A model generated the notes under the pieces. That model saw nothing but the letters and a program-made list of their open reading frames with translations. It made no database searches and was not told where the DNA came from. This document shows positions 1,857-53,508 of a stretch of 64,000 bases of DNA, piece after piece. Position 1 is the first letter of the stretch. Every line of letters starts with the position of its first letter. The stretch spans positions 24,062,501-24,126,500 of the forward strand of contig NC_068561.1 in the NCBI RefSeq assembly GCF_022201045.2. The letters run 5' to 3'. The DNA is from Citrus sinensis (Eukaryota > Streptophyta > Magnoliopsida > Sapindales > Rutaceae). The position numbers were made by a program, and so were the translations under genes.

Positions 1857-3250
1857 TTAGGCATTTTTTATCAGCTTCTCCACAACTGCTCTCTGTCTTT
1901 CAATCTTCAACATATAAAACAAGAACTCATTCCATGTGTCAATGGGGCCTGGCAAGCACCAGTGAACACAATCATTCACTGTCTTATTCTTATGCATGGA
2001 GTGTCCGTACTGATTAGGATGCCCATCTGGCCTTAACAACATAATTTCAGTAGTGTCAAGCAACGAAAATTTCAACCCCATATCCATCCCTTGCTTCTCT
2101 GCTGCTCTTAGTTCCTCTACTTGCGTCAAGTAAAACTCCATTGTATACCCATCTAACTCCACTTCTTGGCTTGTAAATGGCCTTGTTCTCCCACAGTTTC
2201 CTCCCTTGTCCCAATCACCATTCTCAAAATGAGACGGAGAAAATGTCCTTAAAAATGTGATACCCTTGTAGTTCTTAAGCCTCTGAAGAGTTCTAAATGC
2301 AGTTCGAAACGCCATCCTGTACGCATGGTACTTGGTTAAGGCTGTCATGTTGTTAATATTGCAGTTGTGGCAGCCAACAGGTTGACCATTTGCATAGTAT
2401 ACCAGAGGGCGAAAGAACCATTGTCCTGCTGAAATGATCACATAGTCGAAATTTTCAATCTGACTCACCCAGGATTCATCAGCTTCGTCTAAGTAGAGGT
2501 TCATCAGGTTGTTGCGAGAATGACCATTAGGGTCTGCATCACTTGATTTAACCAAGAAAGGAGACCATAATGTAGCTACTGTAAATTTATACTCTGTGTA
2601 ATACCATCGTTTGAAATAATCGGTTTCCGATGTGTACTTATGAGAGATGTCTTCGGGATTGGCCTCCTGTAACATGTACTTGATCTTTACTTTCTAGTGA
2701 TTATCATGAGAGCATGCTGAGCAAATTATCAAATTATGCAAAAGAAAGAAAATATGTGGTAATGAGGGATCAAAACACTTACACTGGCTAAGAGGCACAG
2801 CAAGGATTCCATTTGATTCCTTCCCACTGAGTCCCCGACAAATGCCAATGATTTCCCTCTAACAATCTCCAGGAACTGAACTGGATTGAACAAAGGAAGC
2901 TCACATTCATGTGGCTTCCACCTCCAGTTCATGAACTCTGTATCCGGTCTGCCAAACTTCATGCAGTTCTGCTGATCAATGATCAGACGGCAACTTTCGT
3001 TCGAGTAGTAAGGCCCTTTTGGATTCGGAACCCATTCTCCACTAAAAATGTCACAGTGCTTCTCTAATACCATGCTTCTCAATTCACCGACATTAATCCT
3101 AGCAGATGACAACGGTGACCGCCGAGTGTCCAAACAGAGAGGGATTACGGTGAGGAGACTCAAAATAATGGCGAGTAAAAGAACCATTTTCGGGGTGTTT
3201 TCAATTTGAAGTTTGGTTCGTCCATTGAGATCAGCGGCATGAGCCTTCAT
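1857..3250 (-). CDS. Trichome birefringence-like (TBL) polysaccharide O-acetyltransferase, copy a
   Basis: Two exons, 3250-2783 and 2666-1857, encode 425 residues. The 116-bp intron has GTAAGT...CAG ends. The protein is a type II Golgi membrane protein: a short basic N-terminus, a hydrophobic anchor at about residues 22-40, then the PMR5 N-terminal domain ([17 protein letters not shown]) and the PC-esterase/DUF231 domain. The catalytic signatures are present: the GDS motif as GDSVGRNQM just before the intron, and the DxxH motif as [14 protein letters not shown] near the C-terminus. TBL proteins transfer acetyl groups to hemicellulose or pectin in the Golgi. The sequence resembles the TBL19-TBL22/TBL27 group, which includes xyloglucan O-acetyltransferases; the exact substrate cannot be read here. 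It forms a tandem pair with the TBL gene at 6116-9316, with the same exon border. A TATA-like CCATATAAA lies at 3291-3299 on the minus strand. Confidence 0.93.
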
Positions 3251-3290
3251 GGTGTAGTGCCAAGTAAGAAACTTGTGCGTTTGGAGTTAA

Positions 3291-6115: not shown

Positions 6116-7494
6116 CTATCTAAACCTCATTTTCCTATCACTTGGATAAAGCTTATCCTCATACGATCTAATCCCCTCCATCTTCAACATCTCCAGCAGG
6201 AAATCACTCCACGTATCGATGGGCCCCGGCAAGCACCAGTGCACACAGTCATTGTACAATGTGACATTTTCATGTGGCCAGTGGCCGTATCTACTAGGGT
6301 GACCATCTGGTCTCAACAACATTGCCTGTGTGGTATCAAGTAACCTAAACTTTTTGCCCCTCCTTTGCCCTTCTTTCTCAGCAGCTTTAAATTCCTCTAT
6401 TTGAATCATGTAAAGCTCCAAATTGTCACCCTCCAGTGTTGTCTCATTGCTTTTGAATGGCCTTGTCCTCACACAGTTCCCACCTTGATTCCATAACCCA
6501 TTTTCGAAATGCGACGGTGCAAAAGTTCTCAAAAACGTTATGCCCTTGTAATTTTCCAGGCTATATATGGCCTTAAAAGCTGTTCTAAAGGCGCTTCTAT
6601 AGCCATAGAACATTTTCATGTCAGTCACATTGTCTAAGAGGCAGTACTTGCAGCCAACGATTTTGTTGTTTTCGTAATAAACCATTGGTCTAAAGAACCA
6701 ATGGCCTGCTGAAATGATTAGGAAATTAAAGTCATCAATTTGGGTGGTCCATTCTTCATCAAATTCGTCCAGATAAAGATTGAACAGTCCTGTGTTGGTG
6801 GGTCCGTCTGAGTCCGCCTCTTTGGACTTCACCAAATGGGGCGTCCAAAATGTTGCAAGAGTAAAGTTGTAAGATGTGTACCTCCATCGTTTGAATCTTT
6901 CCTCTGGTGTGTATGAAACGTCAACTGGGTATTCCACCTGAAAACGCAAGTAACAAGGAGTGAGAATTTGAATCTACTATTATGGCTCGTTTTCTATCAT
7001 ATCTATCTATCTATTCATGTAATTACATATAAATGTTGATCAATTGCGCTCTAAAATCTTTAATGTGACTAATGATTCCTGAAGCAATATGTGGGATTAA
7101 TACGACAAAGTTTTTAGGAGGGGTTAACAAATTAATTATGGAGTGGTAGAAGACAAGATCATGCATGGTTGGTAGAGTTTACAGAGACTCTGAACTGTAT
7201 CAGAAGACAAATGTTTGTAGATATAAGAATCTTTGATTAATTTTAATTGAGTGGGCAACGAGGCCATGCATGTTGCTAAGCTTGGACATGATCTTGTGGG
7301 CAACCAATCAATAGAATAATTGAGACCAAATCTGATAATAGTAAGTGGCTAACTGTTATCTAACCATGCATGCTTAACTTTATATGCAAGTGGGTTGGAA
7401 TGTCGAATTTAAAAAAATAAAGTGTGACATAAACGAATCTGTCGACAAGCAATGTGACATATTACAAATATTTAATTAATTCTACATCACAATT

Positions 7495-7527
<33 letters not shown>

Positions 7528-9316
7528 CCTTTCAACAATTTATAATTAATTTTGTTTATTATTATTTTCTGGACAGCTGGGTTGTTGAACCATATGGGAT
7601 TAGGTGCTATGGCTCCTTCACAACGTTTAAAAGTTCATCAATTAGAAGCTTTTAAAAAAAATGAAAAATGAAATTATAATTTTATTTCAGTATACCTTGG
7701 TCAAAATTATACATAAAAAAATATGTGTATCTTAATTTCGACTTCTAAAGGAGAGTCTTGGGAATCAATTTTTCCTTTTTAAAAAATATAACGAATTAAT
7801 GAAGGCAGAAATTGGTATTTTTCGCATTGAAATTTTTAGTAGAGGTATTTTTTAAAAAAAAAGAAAATTAAAATCAAATTAAAATGTTTAAAGATTGATA
7901 GATCGAAATAGCTAGTCGTGTTTGTGGGAATGAGTAGATGTAGCAAGTAAAGATTCCACAAACTGCCACCCCATAATTTTACCTAATCGTTCATTTAGTT
8001 GTTGGGTTAATTAGGTCAACTAACTCCCTTTTCTAATTCAAAATCATAGTACGGATCAGTTAAATTGCAGGTTATTAGATTTATAGAAAAAAAAAAAAAA
8101 ATCAACAGCGACCATAGTATAAATTTTTTAAAAAGTAATGTAAATAGTGAGCGTCCGTCTAACCCAAATTTAGAAATCAGAAGCAATTTAGTGTAAAAAA
8201 AAAAAAAAAAAAATTAAAAGACATTGAGCGGTAAAATATCTCACAACTATAGCTAGGTTATGGGGGGAAAAAGAAAAGAAAGTATGTCATGCTACATATG
8301 ATTATGTCGAGAAAAAATGACGTTAACACTGATTAAGATATATGCTTCTTTTTCTCACGCCAATAAAACTCAGCTCGTTATCAAGTTTAAAATGCTGATT
8401 AATATAGTTTCCACTAAAATTAAGCACCGTAAAAAATTAAGGTAAATTTTAAATTATCTTCTTATGACAGTCTTTAAATTATCTCCTTCCTTTTAAAAAT
8501 ATTTAAATACCTCTTTTTTTATTCAAAAGATAAGAAGAAAATGGAGGTGAGTAAAGAAAATATAGTGATAGCTCGAGATTTTTAAAAGTACAAAATAATT
8601 CGAAGATAGTAAATTAACGATGTGTAATTTAAAATTAACCCAAAACTATTTATGTAGTGTGCTATATAAGTTGCAAATGACGAAAAAACAAAGGAACAAA
8701 AAAAAAACAAAAAAACGGAAGTACCACAAAAATGGATAGAATTTAATTGGTTGATAATTAAAGAGAGAAAGAGAGAGAGCTTTACCCTAGATAGGAGGCA
8801 AATTAGCGACTGCATCTGATTTCTGGCCACAGAGTCACCAACAAAGGCCATTGATTTTCCTCTAACAATTTCAAGAAACTGAGACGGGTTAAAAATAGGC
8901 AACTCACACCCATCTGGCTTCCATCTCCATTTCATAAAATCAGTATCTGGCCTTCCATATTTCATGCAATTTTGATGCTCATGAATTGCCCAACATGTTG
9001 TGTTTGTGTAATATGGACCTTCAGGATTTGGCACCCACTCTCCTGAAAATATATCACATTTTTCTGAACCTTCGACTTCTTTTATCGAGCCTTGATCTGC
9101 GTCATTATTATTTAATGAAGAAGGCGATGATGGCTCGGGAGAAGGAGAAGAATAATATTTTGAAAAACCAAAAATAGGGTTTCCTGATAAAGGGTAGTGA
9201 AGAGAAATGATTGCAAGAATAATTAGGGTTATTGTTATAGTAAAAACTATTTTTGGGGTCCTAGGGCTTTGGCTAAAATGAAGCTCCATGGCTTGATGCT
9301 TCATCTTTGTTAGCAA
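6116..9316 (-). CDS. Trichome birefringence-like (TBL) polysaccharide O-acetyltransferase, copy b
   Basis: Two exons, 9316-8786 and 6937-6116, encode 450 residues. They are separated by a 1,848-bp intron (GTAAAG...TTTTCAG) at the same place as in copy a, just after the GDS block. Domains in order: basic N-terminus, membrane anchor at about residues 22-43 ([16 protein letters not shown]), a Ser/Pro-rich linker, the PMR5N domain ([19 protein letters not shown]), GDSVARNQM, and the C-terminal [14 protein letters not shown] carrying the DxxH motif. Both catalytic motifs are intact, so an active Golgi O-acetyltransferase is expected. Copy b resembles copy a along its whole length, which indicates tandem duplication. 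Its intron is sixteen times longer and holds only AT-rich DNA and a (GA)n run. The upstream ATG at 9316 was chosen; ATG codons at residues 5 and 10 are alternatives and would not affect the anchor. A TATA-like sequence lies near 9376-9388. Confidence 0.93.
7497..7527. repeat. (GA)n microsatellite in the TBL copy b intron
   Basis: About 15 uninterrupted GA units within the large intron. A likely polymorphic simple repeat. Confidence 0.9.
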
Positions 9317-9375
9317 GAAAGAAAATATATAAAAAGGATAAAGAGAGACACATGCAAAAGAAAGAGACCTTGTTG

Positions 9376-9388
9376 TTGTATATATAAA
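9376..9388 (-). promoter_or_regulatory. TATA box of TBL copy b
   Basis: On the minus strand the segment reads CTTTATATATAC, about 60 bp upstream of the chosen ATG. This is reasonable spacing for a plant promoter with a short 5' UTR. Confidence 0.45.
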
Positions 9389-9399
9389 GTTCGTAAGTT

Positions 9400-12300
9400 C
9401 AAAGAAACAATCAAGAGGTGAAATTAATTTTTATAATATCTTTTTGGGATGGTGGGGTAATATCGTCTCTTGATGCTAATTAAACAAAAGAAAATCACGA
9501 ATACTATTACTAGTACTACATTGAAAACAACAGCTAAAGAAAAAAAAAAAAAACAACTAAATAAATTAAAGGTTCTGTAGGTTTTGGTTTGTCGTGGAAG
9601 GCGGAATCTTCTTAAATTAAAATGCAATAATGGTGGTCACCCTCTCATTCATGTATATGCATGGCAAGCATTTTCTAAAAATGATTTTTGTATGTTTTCG
9701 GAAATTATTGAAGAACAATAAGTGAGGTGAGTTAATTAGATCAGTAGTAGAGTAATTGAATTAAAATGTTTGAATGCATAAGCAGTTAGTTATATTTAAA
9801 GAAGCATTTACCAAGTTGAAAGAAGCTTCTCACCTTCTATTTATAGATTGCTTGCTCAACATAGTTAGTAATTGGCTTGTGTAGGCTTTAATATTTGACG
9901 GAAGTTAGAATCTTCAATTCCAAGTAACGTTTATCAAGGGGTTTTTTTTTTTTTGTTTTGTTTTAAAATACTCATCTTTAATAATTAATCATCTATATGC
10001 TGAGATTTAATTTATATCAATTTTATTGTAACATAATAGGGATATCAGAGCCTATTTGCGTTGATTATATTTATACTTAAATATTAAATAAAATCTACTC
10101 TCATCAAATAAAAAGATATTGATTATTACGAGAATTATAAACCTCATTTATTACCAAAACTTATAAGTTAGATACAACTCATTTACATATTAACACATGT
10201 AAAAAAGTTGTGTTGAAAATGAGGAATTGTGGATGACATAAAAATTCTTAAAGTTAATTCGCAAACGATTACTTGGATATGACAATTAGGTATCAAAATC
10301 AGAGCTAGATATCAACTTTACAACTCATAAATCCTTATAGAATGCGCAATTCATTATAGCCGGCTCACTCAAATTGCGTATGGCATCTATAGATGGTCCA
10401 AAATTGTGTTAAAGTAAGCCGTTTATATTACTAGTGTTTTTTTGGAAAAAAAGAAAAAAGAAAAAAGAAAGGTCCAACAGTGTGATTAAATAGCTCTTAA
10501 GCTGTTGATTTTGATTGGAATTTCAAAATTTTTCGCTTTGTCTTTCCATGAGCTCAATGATTATTTGCTTTCCAACTCATTTCACCTTGGCATTTACTTC
10601 TTCTTAGCCTCAACTTTTTCTTCAAGCTTTTTGATAGCTAAAAAAAAAAAAAAATTGCCCGTGAATGAATAGGGTGATGTATCAGCATTTAATTTCGTTT
10701 AGCATTAATCTTTCCGTAAAAATTTTAATTTGACCGCAAGCACAATTATAAATTTGAATATCTAAATCTAAAATGATCAGTTGAATTTATTTCAAAGATT
10801 TGAAATGAAACCAAAGCAATGGACACGAAAAAATTGAAAATTCATAACCACTCATGTTAAATTACAATTATTTTTTTTAAAAAAAATGAGATTATAATAA
10901 TTAAATTAGATTTACTGTCCATTCATCATGAAGGGAGAGAAAGAATCTAATTTGTCACCAAAGTAATAATCGGATAGCAATTAAATATAGGTAATTCAAT
11001 GTGTCACAGTCAAAAAAATGGTCCCCAAAAATGAATTGATTATGGTACACAAATTGCCTCTACTAGAACTACAATAAATTAAGAAAGCTCCTTGTATATT
11101 CCAAACAGGCTATTATTTTCTATATAATAGCGACTGAATTGATTAATTGAATTCCCAAACAAGTAACCGACTCAAGTCCCATACCATCAACTAATTTAAT
11201 CTTTTCAAGCAAAGTCCCAACATATTCAACAATTACATGTTATATAACCCTTTTCTTTTCTGTTCTTTTTGAGCTTATTATAATGAATTATGATAATCAG
11301 CAGATAATGCCATGAAAAGTGGGATCCACATCCATAATTTAGAAAGAAAATAATATTCAATTTGCTCTCATCTTCATATGTGTATTATGTCCTTTGTTGT
11401 TATTACATTACAATCATACTTTCAAAGCTGAACAAAATCGAAATCGGTTGGCTTCTCATTATCATAACCACCAATATCTTCTTTTTCTGATTTTGTTAAA
11501 GCACTAAAAAATGATACAAATCTATCAAAGGTAATATCATTTACGGTGACATTTGTGTCTTGTACGTTGCCTGTTTAATTCTCATTTCACTGTTTAGAGT
11601 GTGCCATTTCTACAATTGGAAAAGGAATTTTGGCCAACAAAATCACTCATCTTAAAAATCACACTTGCATAAAAATTAATGTCATCGAACTTAGTTTAAT
11701 TAGAAAATTAATGATTCTGTGGCGGCCTTTCTTTTTAACTTTTTTCAATTTATTTTTTCAGTGTTCAAAGCAAGTACCAAAGTCTTATGCTCCTCCAGTG
11801 TGTATTATGCTATTTTTTTTTTTTTTTTTGGGTGCATGTGTGATGTGGCTATGAATTTTCTTAAAATTTTCGCCAAAAAAAATAAATAAATAAATTCTTG
11901 ACTCTCCAGCCTCAAGCCTAAAAACTCTACCTATACTTTAGGCAAGAGTCCAAACCTTATTAAATGCAGTTGATAATATCTACAAAGGCCCAATAAATCA
12001 TGGCCTGCGGTGCTTGGTTTACATTCAGAATCAGAAGAGTCGTGCCATGAAGGGCACGGCTGAAAGGACGGGCCTCCGTCCTCTGAAGATTCAAATTTCA
12101 CCGAGCCCAGCATGGCCCGTAAACTGCCAGGGCTAAAATGGGCTAAGCCCATCAAATTGAACTTGTGCCAATTGCTGATTGTCCTCGACAACCCTAGTCA
12201 CTGTGTTATCCGAGAATGCAGTCATGTCCAATGAGAAGGAATTTTTCATCATCTTTTAATTTTTTCTCTCATTCAATTGCATCCATAACTTATTCATGTC

Positions 12301-21146: not shown

Positions 21147-23673
21147 TCATCTTCGAGCAGGGTTCCCACCACGAGGTTGCCCGCTTCCAGATCGAGCAGG
21201 TGGTGTTGCAGATCCATAAGGCACATTGTTCAGAGGTGGCGGTACTTGTCCATGTGGGGCAGCACCTCTGGGTGCTCCATCAAAACCGGTTCCTCTTGAT
21301 GGATCATAACTAGGTGCTCTGCGCATATCATACCCTTGCCCTCTTTGTACATCATATCCAGGTCCTCTTTGCGGAATGTAACTGGGTGCTCTTTGTGCTT
21401 CATAGACAGGCCCTCTCTGTACATCATAGCCAGGAACTCGCTGTGTCTCATAACCTGGACCTCTCTGCATGTCATAACTAGGCCCTCTCTGCATGTCATA
21501 ACCGAGCCCTCTCTGTGGATCATAACTGGGTCCCCTGTGTATATCATAGTTAGGCCCTCTTTGTGCATCATATTTAGAACCTTTCTGTGCATCATAACCA
21601 GGTCCTTTTGTTGGATCATAGCCGGGTCCTTTGGCTGGATCATAACTGGGTCCTTTGGTTGGATCATAACTGGGTGCTTTGGATGCATCATAACCAGGTC
21701 CTTTGGATGCCTCATAACCAGGTCCTCTTGGTATGTCATAAGCAGCCCTCATAGGAGTTCCTGATTGAGTTGCCGCATAAGCACTGGTACTTGTATTAGG
21801 CCCAGCACCAACAACACCAGCAGTAGTAGCTGAAGGTGGAGGCCCATGCCCCTATGACAAAATTTCAAAGAGTGGCATCAGTCTTCGCAGCAGTTAAAAA
21901 AAAAAAAAAGAGCAATAGAATTTTCTTCTTCCAGTCTAGTACTGAAACATCACTCCTAGAACCATGCTTCAACGGGACCATCCTCTGAATAAGTTGAAAA
22001 GCAAGGTTAACCTATGTGATGAACAGATTTAGTTTGTCCCCTTAACAAACTTGTGACTGCCATTTTCTTTCCCCTAGAAAAAATTTATTTCACCATCCAC
22101 ATTATTCTTGTGACAATCAAACACCCATAATTGGTTTTACTAAAATGACTGTGATGGATAACCATCTGATCAAGGAAATCAAGTTTCTGATAGAAAATAC
22201 ATACACAAGGAAACCAAACAAGGGATGGCAAGATATATAGATATTAGCAAATAACATGGTCATCATTCTAAAAAGCACAACTTTGCAATGCAGATTTTGT
22301 CCAAGATTAACAACCATGAATGATGATAAAGCAACAGTTTACATAAAACCAAATCGAGGAAGACAACAGACCTGGGGAACACCATAACCATCTTCATAAG
22401 CATTTTGTCCCACAGGACGTCCAGAAGTCTCATTCTCACTGTTTCCAGTTGCACCACCATAAGATCCATCTGCTTATGTTTGCAAATGTGATACATTAGT
22501 AATATACAAAAATGAAAAAAGGAGCTCCAAAAGGGAAGGAGAAAAGAAATGGTAAGAATACCAGCCCTTCTGTCTACATTAGGAGCATTCATCAACTCAG
22601 CCCGTAGCTTTTCCACCTCTGTTGCCATGGTAATATAGTTCTTCTCCATCACCTGAAGTGATTCAAGATGGTCATTGTAAAATTTCTTCTCATATTCGTA
22701 AGTACCCCTGCACAAATGGAAGGTTATGGCATTTTTGGACCAAATTTTGAGGAAAATAGCGCAATAGCAATGTTGGAAAGCAAGATGAAGAAAATAATAT
22801 TGTGGACTAGAACTTTCACAGATCCAGGGATGTCCAAAATGTAATGCCTTGGAGTAAACTTGTCTGAAGAGGAAGTCCAGGGTACACGTGAAAATAAGTG
22901 TACATCTTATTTCCAGTTTGTGAGCTCCAACTTTAGGCATTGTCTAAGATGCTACAAGAAATAGATAAATAATGTCTGAACAATGAACATTTTGTCAATT
23001 CTACATGCTCAAGCAACAAGCATTAGCATTCACATTCACTAAACCAGATTTGTCAAGTCAATTTTTCTTTAAGTTGTTATTATGACAATATAAGAAGCTC
23101 AAAATTACACCTGCAGTGATGATATTCTTGTCTGAGGCTCTCGAGTTCTGACAGCAAAGCTGGTATCTGCTGCACGTCTGTGTGGGCCCTCTGAAGATCC
23201 TGGGTCAGTTGATGTACTTTGGCAATAAGTTCCTCCCTCGCTACAACCAAGTTCTGAGCTTCTGTCTTTGATTTCTGAAACTCTAGCTTAACGGGCTCTG
23301 CAGTTTTTAGTTCGGCTTCCATCTTGGCAATCTTTTCGGTAAGGTTCCTCATTTGTAGCTCTCTCTCAGACTTCATACCTCCTATCTGACCATGCAATAT
23401 CTGCAACTCATGCTGTGCAGCAGCAAGTTCTTGTCTCAATGTTCCATGGGTAGCAGCAAGCCTCTGATTCTCTGTTGCAAGCTTCTGCATCTCCACATGC
23501 TGCGAGGCAATCTTTTGTTCCATAACTTCAGGAGGAGGCATCATATCGAAAGGAGGAAAGGCACCTGGCATTGGGGGGCGCATACCAGAGACAAATGGAT
23601 CAGGATGCATCATGCCAGGGCCTGGAGGAGGACGCCTTAGATGAGGAGGTGGAATTCGACCCTTGCTTCCCAT
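21147..23673 (-). CDS. FLX-like coiled-coil protein (FLL2 type) with octapeptide array
   Basis: Four exons, 23673-23111, 22707-22562, 22469-22372 and 21851-21147, encode 503 residues. The start is ATG at 23673 (MGSKGRIPPPHLRRPPPGPG). The Pro-rich head is followed by a long coiled coil at about residues 55-235 (EVMEQKIASQHVEMQKLATE onward), the hallmark of FLOWERING LOCUS C EXPRESSOR (FLX) and FLX-like proteins, which help activate FLC and regulate flowering. The tail from about residue 311 to 462 is a tandem octapeptide array, then a G/P/R-rich end. Arabidopsis FLL2 (At1g67170) is known to promote phase separation of the RNA-binding protein FCA, and this gene has the FLL2 build and neighbour. 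It is longer than the Arabidopsis protein (about 360 residues as I recall), largely because of the array. A 5' UTR intron is likely, from the GTAAGA donor at 24489 to the acceptor just before 23693. Confidence 0.88.
21273..21728 (-). repeat. 24-bp tandem repeat coding 19 octapeptides in the FLX-like gene
   Basis: Nineteen consecutive 24-bp units encode R/K-G/A-P-G/S-Y-D/E-x-x, for example RGPGYDVQ, KGPSYDPA and RGPSYDMQ. No unit changes length. Eighteen units keep Tyr at position 5 and the last has Phe. Basic and acidic residues alternate along the array. Confidence 0.95.
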
Positions 23674-43160: not shown

Positions 43161-43191
<31 letters not shown>

Positions 43192-43533
43192 GGGGTGGGG
43201 GGGTGTGGCAACTACCTGTAATGTGTAAAAGATTTAACAGTCTGATTGGGAAATATCATCACTGATCAATCTTATTTAGTGGCAATTGCAAATAAAACTT
43301 ACAAAAACAAGCGAAAGATTGGAGAATTTAGAAGTAGTACTCTATTAATAAAGATCTCTACGTAGAGTTCAAAGTACCATAAAACAAAGAGATAAAGAAC
43401 ACAGCAACAAAATGTGCCTTAAAGTAGGGAAAAATAAACGAAACAAACTGATTCAACATCAAAACCTCGAAATTGATTTGGGAAAACAGAAGCAAAAACA
43501 AAGCAAGTGGAGTGGCAGCTATTAGCTTCAGCT
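42532..43533. other. Convergent 3' region between the COQ11-like gene and KIN copy a
   Basis: Contains the 3' UTR of the Rossmann gene on the left and that of the KIN-like gene on the right. It includes the T16/G25 homopolymer pair at 43155-43203. No gene recognised. Confidence 0.45.
43155..43203. repeat. Homopolymer junction: about 16 T followed by 25 G
   Basis: Sixteen T (43155-43170) are followed directly by twenty-five G (43171-43195), one T and seven more G. Such a G run is very rare in plant DNA and could fold as a G-quadruplex; it is also prone to sequencing and assembly error. Confidence 0.9.
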
Positions 43534-53436: not shown

Positions 53437-53508
53437 TACTTCGAAAAAGGAGAATGTGGTGGAATGTGAATGGACTTCGTAAAAGGGGAATGTGGTGGAA
53501 TGTGAATG
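53437..53508. repeat. 36-bp tandem duplication downstream of ProDH
   Basis: ACTTCGAAAAAGGAGAATG (from 53438) and ACTTCGTAAAAGGGGAATG (from 53474) begin two adjacent 36-bp units with two or three mismatches. They directly abut the probable MITE that follows. Confidence 0.75.

Follow-up and report, generated by a model that had tools for sequence, protein, structure and literature searches.

Gene structure and position of the array

The window (the whole 64,000-nucleotide stretch of Citrus sinensis DNA that was analysed) contains a minus-strand gene of four coding exons, joined in frame to encode a 503-aa protein, whose last coding exon carries a tandem array of Tyr-containing octapeptides (Table 1). 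Splicing was inferred from sequence, with GT-AG introns and a reading frame kept across the inferred exon joins. A preliminary description had assigned the array to the C-terminal exon, and the gene model agrees. Because the array shares this exon with the stop codon, exon skipping would be expected not to remove it cleanly. The exon 1 body presumably forms a coiled coil, by likeness to FLL2, and the tail is presumably disordered. Pfam comparison of the 503-aa protein returned 17 families up to an E value of 1, with 0 above the cut-off.

Table 1. Features of the array gene, with positions in the window
Feature	Position	Strand	Basis
Coding exon 1 (inferred), Pro-rich N-terminus and FLX-family body	23111..23673	-	Translation; paralogues match here
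Coding exon 2 (inferred), EKK...MEKN block of FLX family	22562..22707	-	Translation; family match
Coding exon 3 (inferred)	22372..22469	-	AG/GT borders, frame kept
Coding exon 4 (last), array and stop codon TGA	21147..21851	-	Translation
Degenerate unit (MRAAYDIP, unit 0) immediately before unit 1	21729..21752	-	Translation
Array of 19 tandem 24-bp units, [RK]-[GA]-P-[GS]-[YF]-[DE]-x-x, residues 311-462	21273..21728	-	Unit list, column counts, phase test, Tandem Repeats Finder (TRF)
Lys-type block of array, units 2-7 (KxxxYDxx)	21561..21704	-	Unit list

Elsewhere in the window, two neighbouring look-alike genes occupy 1857-3286 and 6116-9430 on the minus strand, and they appear to resemble the trichome birefringence-like family. 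TRF also reported a near-pure run of about 33 G at 43171-43203 (plus strand) and two tandem 36-bp copies with a 94% match at 53438-53508. Two short ORFs near 18-19 kb were compared with Pfam and matched no family.

Unit composition and phase

The array is 456 bp long, or 19 x 24 bp, and its 19 octads are read in one frame with 0 indels. Column counts over the 19 units gave R13/K6 at position 1 (Arg starting unit 1 and units 8-19), G15/A3/V1 at position 2, P in 15 units and other residues in 4 at position 3, G10/S6/K1/N1/V1 at position 4, Y18/F1 at position 5 (aromatic in every unit) and D15/E3/I1 at position 6; positions 7 and 8 are variable, with Q10 at position 8. The array's 18 Tyr residues share a single phase; when the array residues were shuffled 20,000 times, no phase held more than 9. 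TRF detected the array independently (period 24, 18.8 copies, 71% matches). The 19-unit Tyr array had been correctly described in place, count and phase, with Tyr in 18 of 19 units. The octads had also been called perfectly phased, which holds for the phase itself; the units are well diverged, with a mean pairwise DNA identity of 0.653, 0.72 between neighbours and 22/24 bases in the best pairs. The Lys block and the Arg block (units 8-19, 21273-21560) differ at position 8, which is S/T/A/Q in the former and Q in 8 of the 12 units of the latter.

Residue fractions over the array are 0.118 for Tyr, 0.138 for Arg plus Lys, 0.118 for Asp plus Glu and 0.138 for Pro, with a net charge per residue of 0.02; Lys supplies 7 of the 21 basic residues. 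By composition and phase, aromatic and Arg residues are numerous and evenly mixed within a low-complexity stretch. Identity of the array as a prion-like Q/N-rich domain was considered and rejected (Q 0.072, N 0.007).

Family membership and origin of the array

Comparison with a provisional Arabidopsis FLL2 sequence matched the array gene at 60% over 272 aa (E 7e-110), and the five other family members found matched this provisional sequence in pieces at 31-58%. Judged against this reference, the array gene is probably, among the six found, the FLX-family member nearest Arabidopsis FLL2; it is a probable FLL2 orthologue, and the FLL2-type label originally given to it is supported to the same extent.

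The family search covered a genome of ~300 Mb in 11 contigs, and its locus counts are lower bounds. At least five further loci match the protein body (E 1.1e-31 to 7.8e-17), and therefore, with the array gene, the genome holds at least six probable FLX-family members; the assignment of these five loci to the FLX family is provisional. The common body, encoded by a long first coding exon in the array gene, is matched in the five paralogues, and the EKK...MEKN block of the second exon was matched in 5/5. The array has no counterpart in the tails of these five (open frames, inferred exons), and searching the whole genome with the array sequence returned only itself at E < 0.1. A single C-terminal Y-D box ends three of the five paralogues (SWGAYDMQRAQGHR, VWGGSYDP and AWGHYDKHGPPRR) and is absent from the end of the other two. 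Such a box is a possible ancestral unit of the array, which probably grew in this member by repeated duplication of one C-terminal copy.

Two weak array-like matches on contig C3 (E 0.125) were set aside as likeness of composition rather than homology, being Arg-Ser-Pro-Tyr tails that adjoin an RRM. On the same contig, loci of 3,273 bases at C3:47572484 and C3:47829454, 257 kb apart and identical at 3,271 bases, appear to encode an RRM protein whose tail is rich in Arg, Ser, Pro, Tyr and Asp, presumably like an RS-type splicing factor; the pair is either a duplication of very recent date or a duplicate created in assembly. Relatives beyond the genome were sought with the first 242 residues among prokaryotic, viral and plasmid sequences, giving 45 + 5 pattern matches, of which 0 were confirmed.

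The Arabidopsis protein had been described as shorter than the Citrus one, and the provisional reference is consistent with this, at 359 aa against 503 aa. By the same provisional sequence, the Arabidopsis tail would carry no more than one to three diverged units against 19 here, and the body and the protein end (NN-PY...NP-RR) would be alike in the two proteins. Since the functional Arabidopsis FLL2, in this provisional form, is without such an array, the array would not be essential to known FLL2 function. The same comparison favours reading the array as a tolerated disordered spacer or solubility tail, its core only mildly constrained, on a protein that would condense through its coiled coil and FCA; on all the evidence given here and below we regard that reading as rather unlikely.

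Age and constraint of the units

No two of the 19 units are identical. With every pair of units included, pS comes to 0.523 and pN to 0.296, and mean dS is 0.90, which at assumed plant substitution rates would correspond, roughly, to tens of millions of years. Units 2 and 6, which are not adjacent, share the longest exact repeat in the array (21 nt). Even 24-bp units had earlier been taken to suggest that copy number changes by slippage, and a recent, slippage-prone expansion in this species, differing among accessions, would fit units that are tandem and in register with neighbours slightly more alike than the mean (0.72 against 0.65). The lack of any identical pair, the pS of 0.52 overall and of 0.46 on average between adjacent units, and the position of the longest exact repeat all stand against such an expansion, which we consider very improbable; slippage-driven copy number is unsupported for this copy.

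At unit positions 1-6 pN/pS is 0.38 (bootstrap 0.28-0.51) and at positions 7-8 it is 1.16 (bootstrap 0.70-1.75), the intervals being approximate because unit pairs are not independent. The six-residue core appears to be constrained at the protein level, with positions 7-8 free, and the array is apparently old and maintained by selection. A spacer tail accords poorly with the value at positions 1-6 and with the retention of Tyr or Phe in 19/19 units despite a pS of 0.52. A constrained core with free variation only at positions 7-8 is also what would be expected of a docking motif, and the tail might act as a binding ladder in which every octad serves as a short linear motif recognised by a single partner (RNA, a protein of RNA 3' processing or some other protein) and the array adds avidity without itself driving condensation. 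Single Y-D boxes at the ends of three of the five paralogues found suggest an older single site of this kind; the alternation of R/K at position 1 and of G/S at position 4 is loose for a docking motif, and we know of no partner that binds the octads. We judge the binding ladder unlikely.

Coarse-grained simulations of the array

Array chains were simulated with a coarse-grained Langevin model using approximate CALVADOS-2-type parameter values, in a few short runs. Single-chain runs were of 3.6 million steps with the first 100 saved frames dropped; two-chain runs used a 16-nm box with the first 200 saved frames dropped, broken or truncated last records being discarded too, and were scored by the fraction of saved frames in which the chains lay within 4 nm. 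The single-chain radius of gyration was 3.31 nm in each of two array runs, 3.53 nm after Tyr-to-Ser, 3.54 nm after Arg-to-Lys and 3.15 nm after Lys-to-Arg substitution, 3.22 and 3.03 nm for the synthetic repeat (GRGDSPYS)19, and 3.44 nm for the synthetic repeat without Tyr, with standard errors of 0.04-0.09.

Two-chain fractions were 0.123 +/- 0.016 for the array (6 runs, range 0.052-0.156) against 0.065 for a uniform distribution, one of the six runs (0.052) being without attraction. The array was less sticky than (GRGDSPYS)19 (0.248 +/- 0.059, 4 runs), and the fraction fell to 0.058 +/- 0.006 after Tyr-to-Ser and to 0.041 +/- 0.003 after Arg-to-Lys substitution (4 runs each). These runs are suggestive of a weak self-attraction that depends on both Tyr and Arg. 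Lys-to-Arg substitution did not raise attraction (0.084 and 0.038), which runs counter to the simple view; the outcome, a more compact single chain (3.15 against 3.31 nm) that was not more attractive in pairs, probably reflects sampling.

Scrambled arrays gave 0.140 and 0.009 (scr1) and 0.139 and 0.176 (scr2). Regular spacing was rejected as the key property because these scrambles, with two runs each and a wide spread, overlapped the array, and the missing effect of spacing in the model is a point in favour of a spacer tail. A regular ladder of Tyr and Arg stickers had been proposed to tune phase separation; its sticker component is plausible, given the composition and the modelled dependence on Tyr and Arg, and its regularity brought no clear benefit in the model.

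FCA and FLL2 condensates

That FLL2 promotes FCA condensates, as the preliminary description held, is borne out in print for Arabidopsis, where FCA condensates depend on FLL2, an interactor of FCA (PMC11962161). A review states that FLL2 overexpression increases the size and number of FCA condensates and terms FLL2 prion-like with coiled coils (PMC11435361). For the FLL2 lesion described in the first source, sof78, the predicted effect is on a salt bridge between coiled coils rather than on the tail, and the foci of FCA and of FLL2 mostly form separate condensates, which meet in a few larger ones (PMC11962161). Both points count against the array as an aid to condensation, and the predicted site of the sof78 lesion speaks for a spacer tail.

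FCA itself was sought in the genome with a provisional FCA query for its RRM region; among the 50 matches listed, most were judged by place and identity to be other RRM proteins. Six FCA-like RRM pieces lie at C1:24203042-24208680 (minus strand): four follow one another along the query (87-181), and the remaining two (14-71 and 16-46) cover partly the same stretch of it. Two pieces matched by this provisional query lie at C3:46225628-46228736 (minus strand). A WW family search of the genome gave 13 matches, and a WW domain lies ~2 kb downstream of each FCA-like locus, scoring 31.3 and 30.4 bits against a Pfam cut-off of 26.9. The sequences by the C1 and C3 loci, SWTEHTSPDGYKYYYNC and CDWSEHTCPDGNKYYYNC, resemble the WW domain of FCA. 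Because FCA-like RRM pieces are followed by a WW domain at two loci, the FCA partner is probably present here, perhaps twice. The C1 and C3 loci are a possible duplicate pair of this FLL2 partner.

Proposed function of the array

On the best-supported reading, the array would be a multivalent auxiliary tail on a coiled-coil scaffold that assists FLL2/FCA condensation, and to this we give about an even chance of being correct. The array gene would represent FLL2 within the FLX family of plants, and its coiled-coil body (exons 1-2) would join FLL2 chains and bind partners. The tail, with 19 near-neutral octads whose average content is roughly one residue each of the aromatic, basic and acidic classes plus one proline, would supply many weak Tyr-Arg contacts, and these may help FLL2 to join the nuclear condensates of FCA that serve RNA 3'-end processing and to make them larger. 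Self-association of the array, condensation with its partner and an effect on flowering would be expected under this scheme.

In a bolder form, which we think improbable, the array would be a close natural parallel to the engineered resilin-like octapeptide and an FLL2 valence module in many eudicots, its unit number and Lys/Arg mix setting the FCA condensate threshold and hence flowering time, with Arabidopsis, the species of the FLL2 work cited here, nearly array-free. If FLL2 relatives do carry a countable, evenly mixed Tyr/Arg array, sticker number could be varied by whole units in a real gene, with condensate size and flowering time as the readout, and the Arabidopsis protein would not be representative. 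If the tail is inert, it would caution against taking sticker ladders for function.

Comparison with known repeat systems

In FLL2 and FLX-like searches of an open-access subset of the literature, Tyr octads of FLL2 appeared in none of the titles and abstract openings among the matches listed. Six octad peptide strings were also searched for in the open-access literature, and the one match listed was a paper on lymphoma autoantigens.

The RNA polymerase II C-terminal domain resembles the array in that tandem short Tyr-containing heptads end a nuclear protein; the array differs from those heptads in its unit and in being without their Ser-Pro pattern. The synthetic resilin-like (GRGDSPYS)n is, like the array, built of octads in which a Tyr, a Pro, a basic and an acidic residue stand among Gly/Ser spacers, so that in the synthetic repeat each of the four classes stands at 0.125, and its net charge is likewise near zero. 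The composition of the array overlaps with that of (GRGDSPYS)n by 0.67, or by 0.84 after alike residues are merged, and the overlap is 0.18-0.39 for windows of 152 residues taken from residues 1-310 of the array protein. The array has another residue order, diverged units, fewer Gly and Ser and some Lys, and the two are not homologous. In PMC10491311, (GRGDSPYS)n was made with 20 to 80 copies, and reversible phase separation below a 40 C cloud point is reported for the forms with 40 and 80 copies. The Tyr-to-Val form showed no phase separation at first and did so after 24-48 h at 80 C (PMC10491311), so Tyr is not the sole driver in (GRGDSPYS)n.

The closest natural likeness in print, among the matches found, is TAF15, which has about ten D(S)RGG(G)YGG repeats with 11 D and 10 Y in 82 residues (PMC9957100). 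Like the array, these repeats are roughly eight residues long and each hold a single Asp, Arg and Tyr; TAF15 is a nuclear RNA-binding protein. They differ from the array in being RGG-rich, in having no Pro in the printed segment and in belonging to an unrelated animal protein. In composition, the array resembles these condensate-forming sequences.
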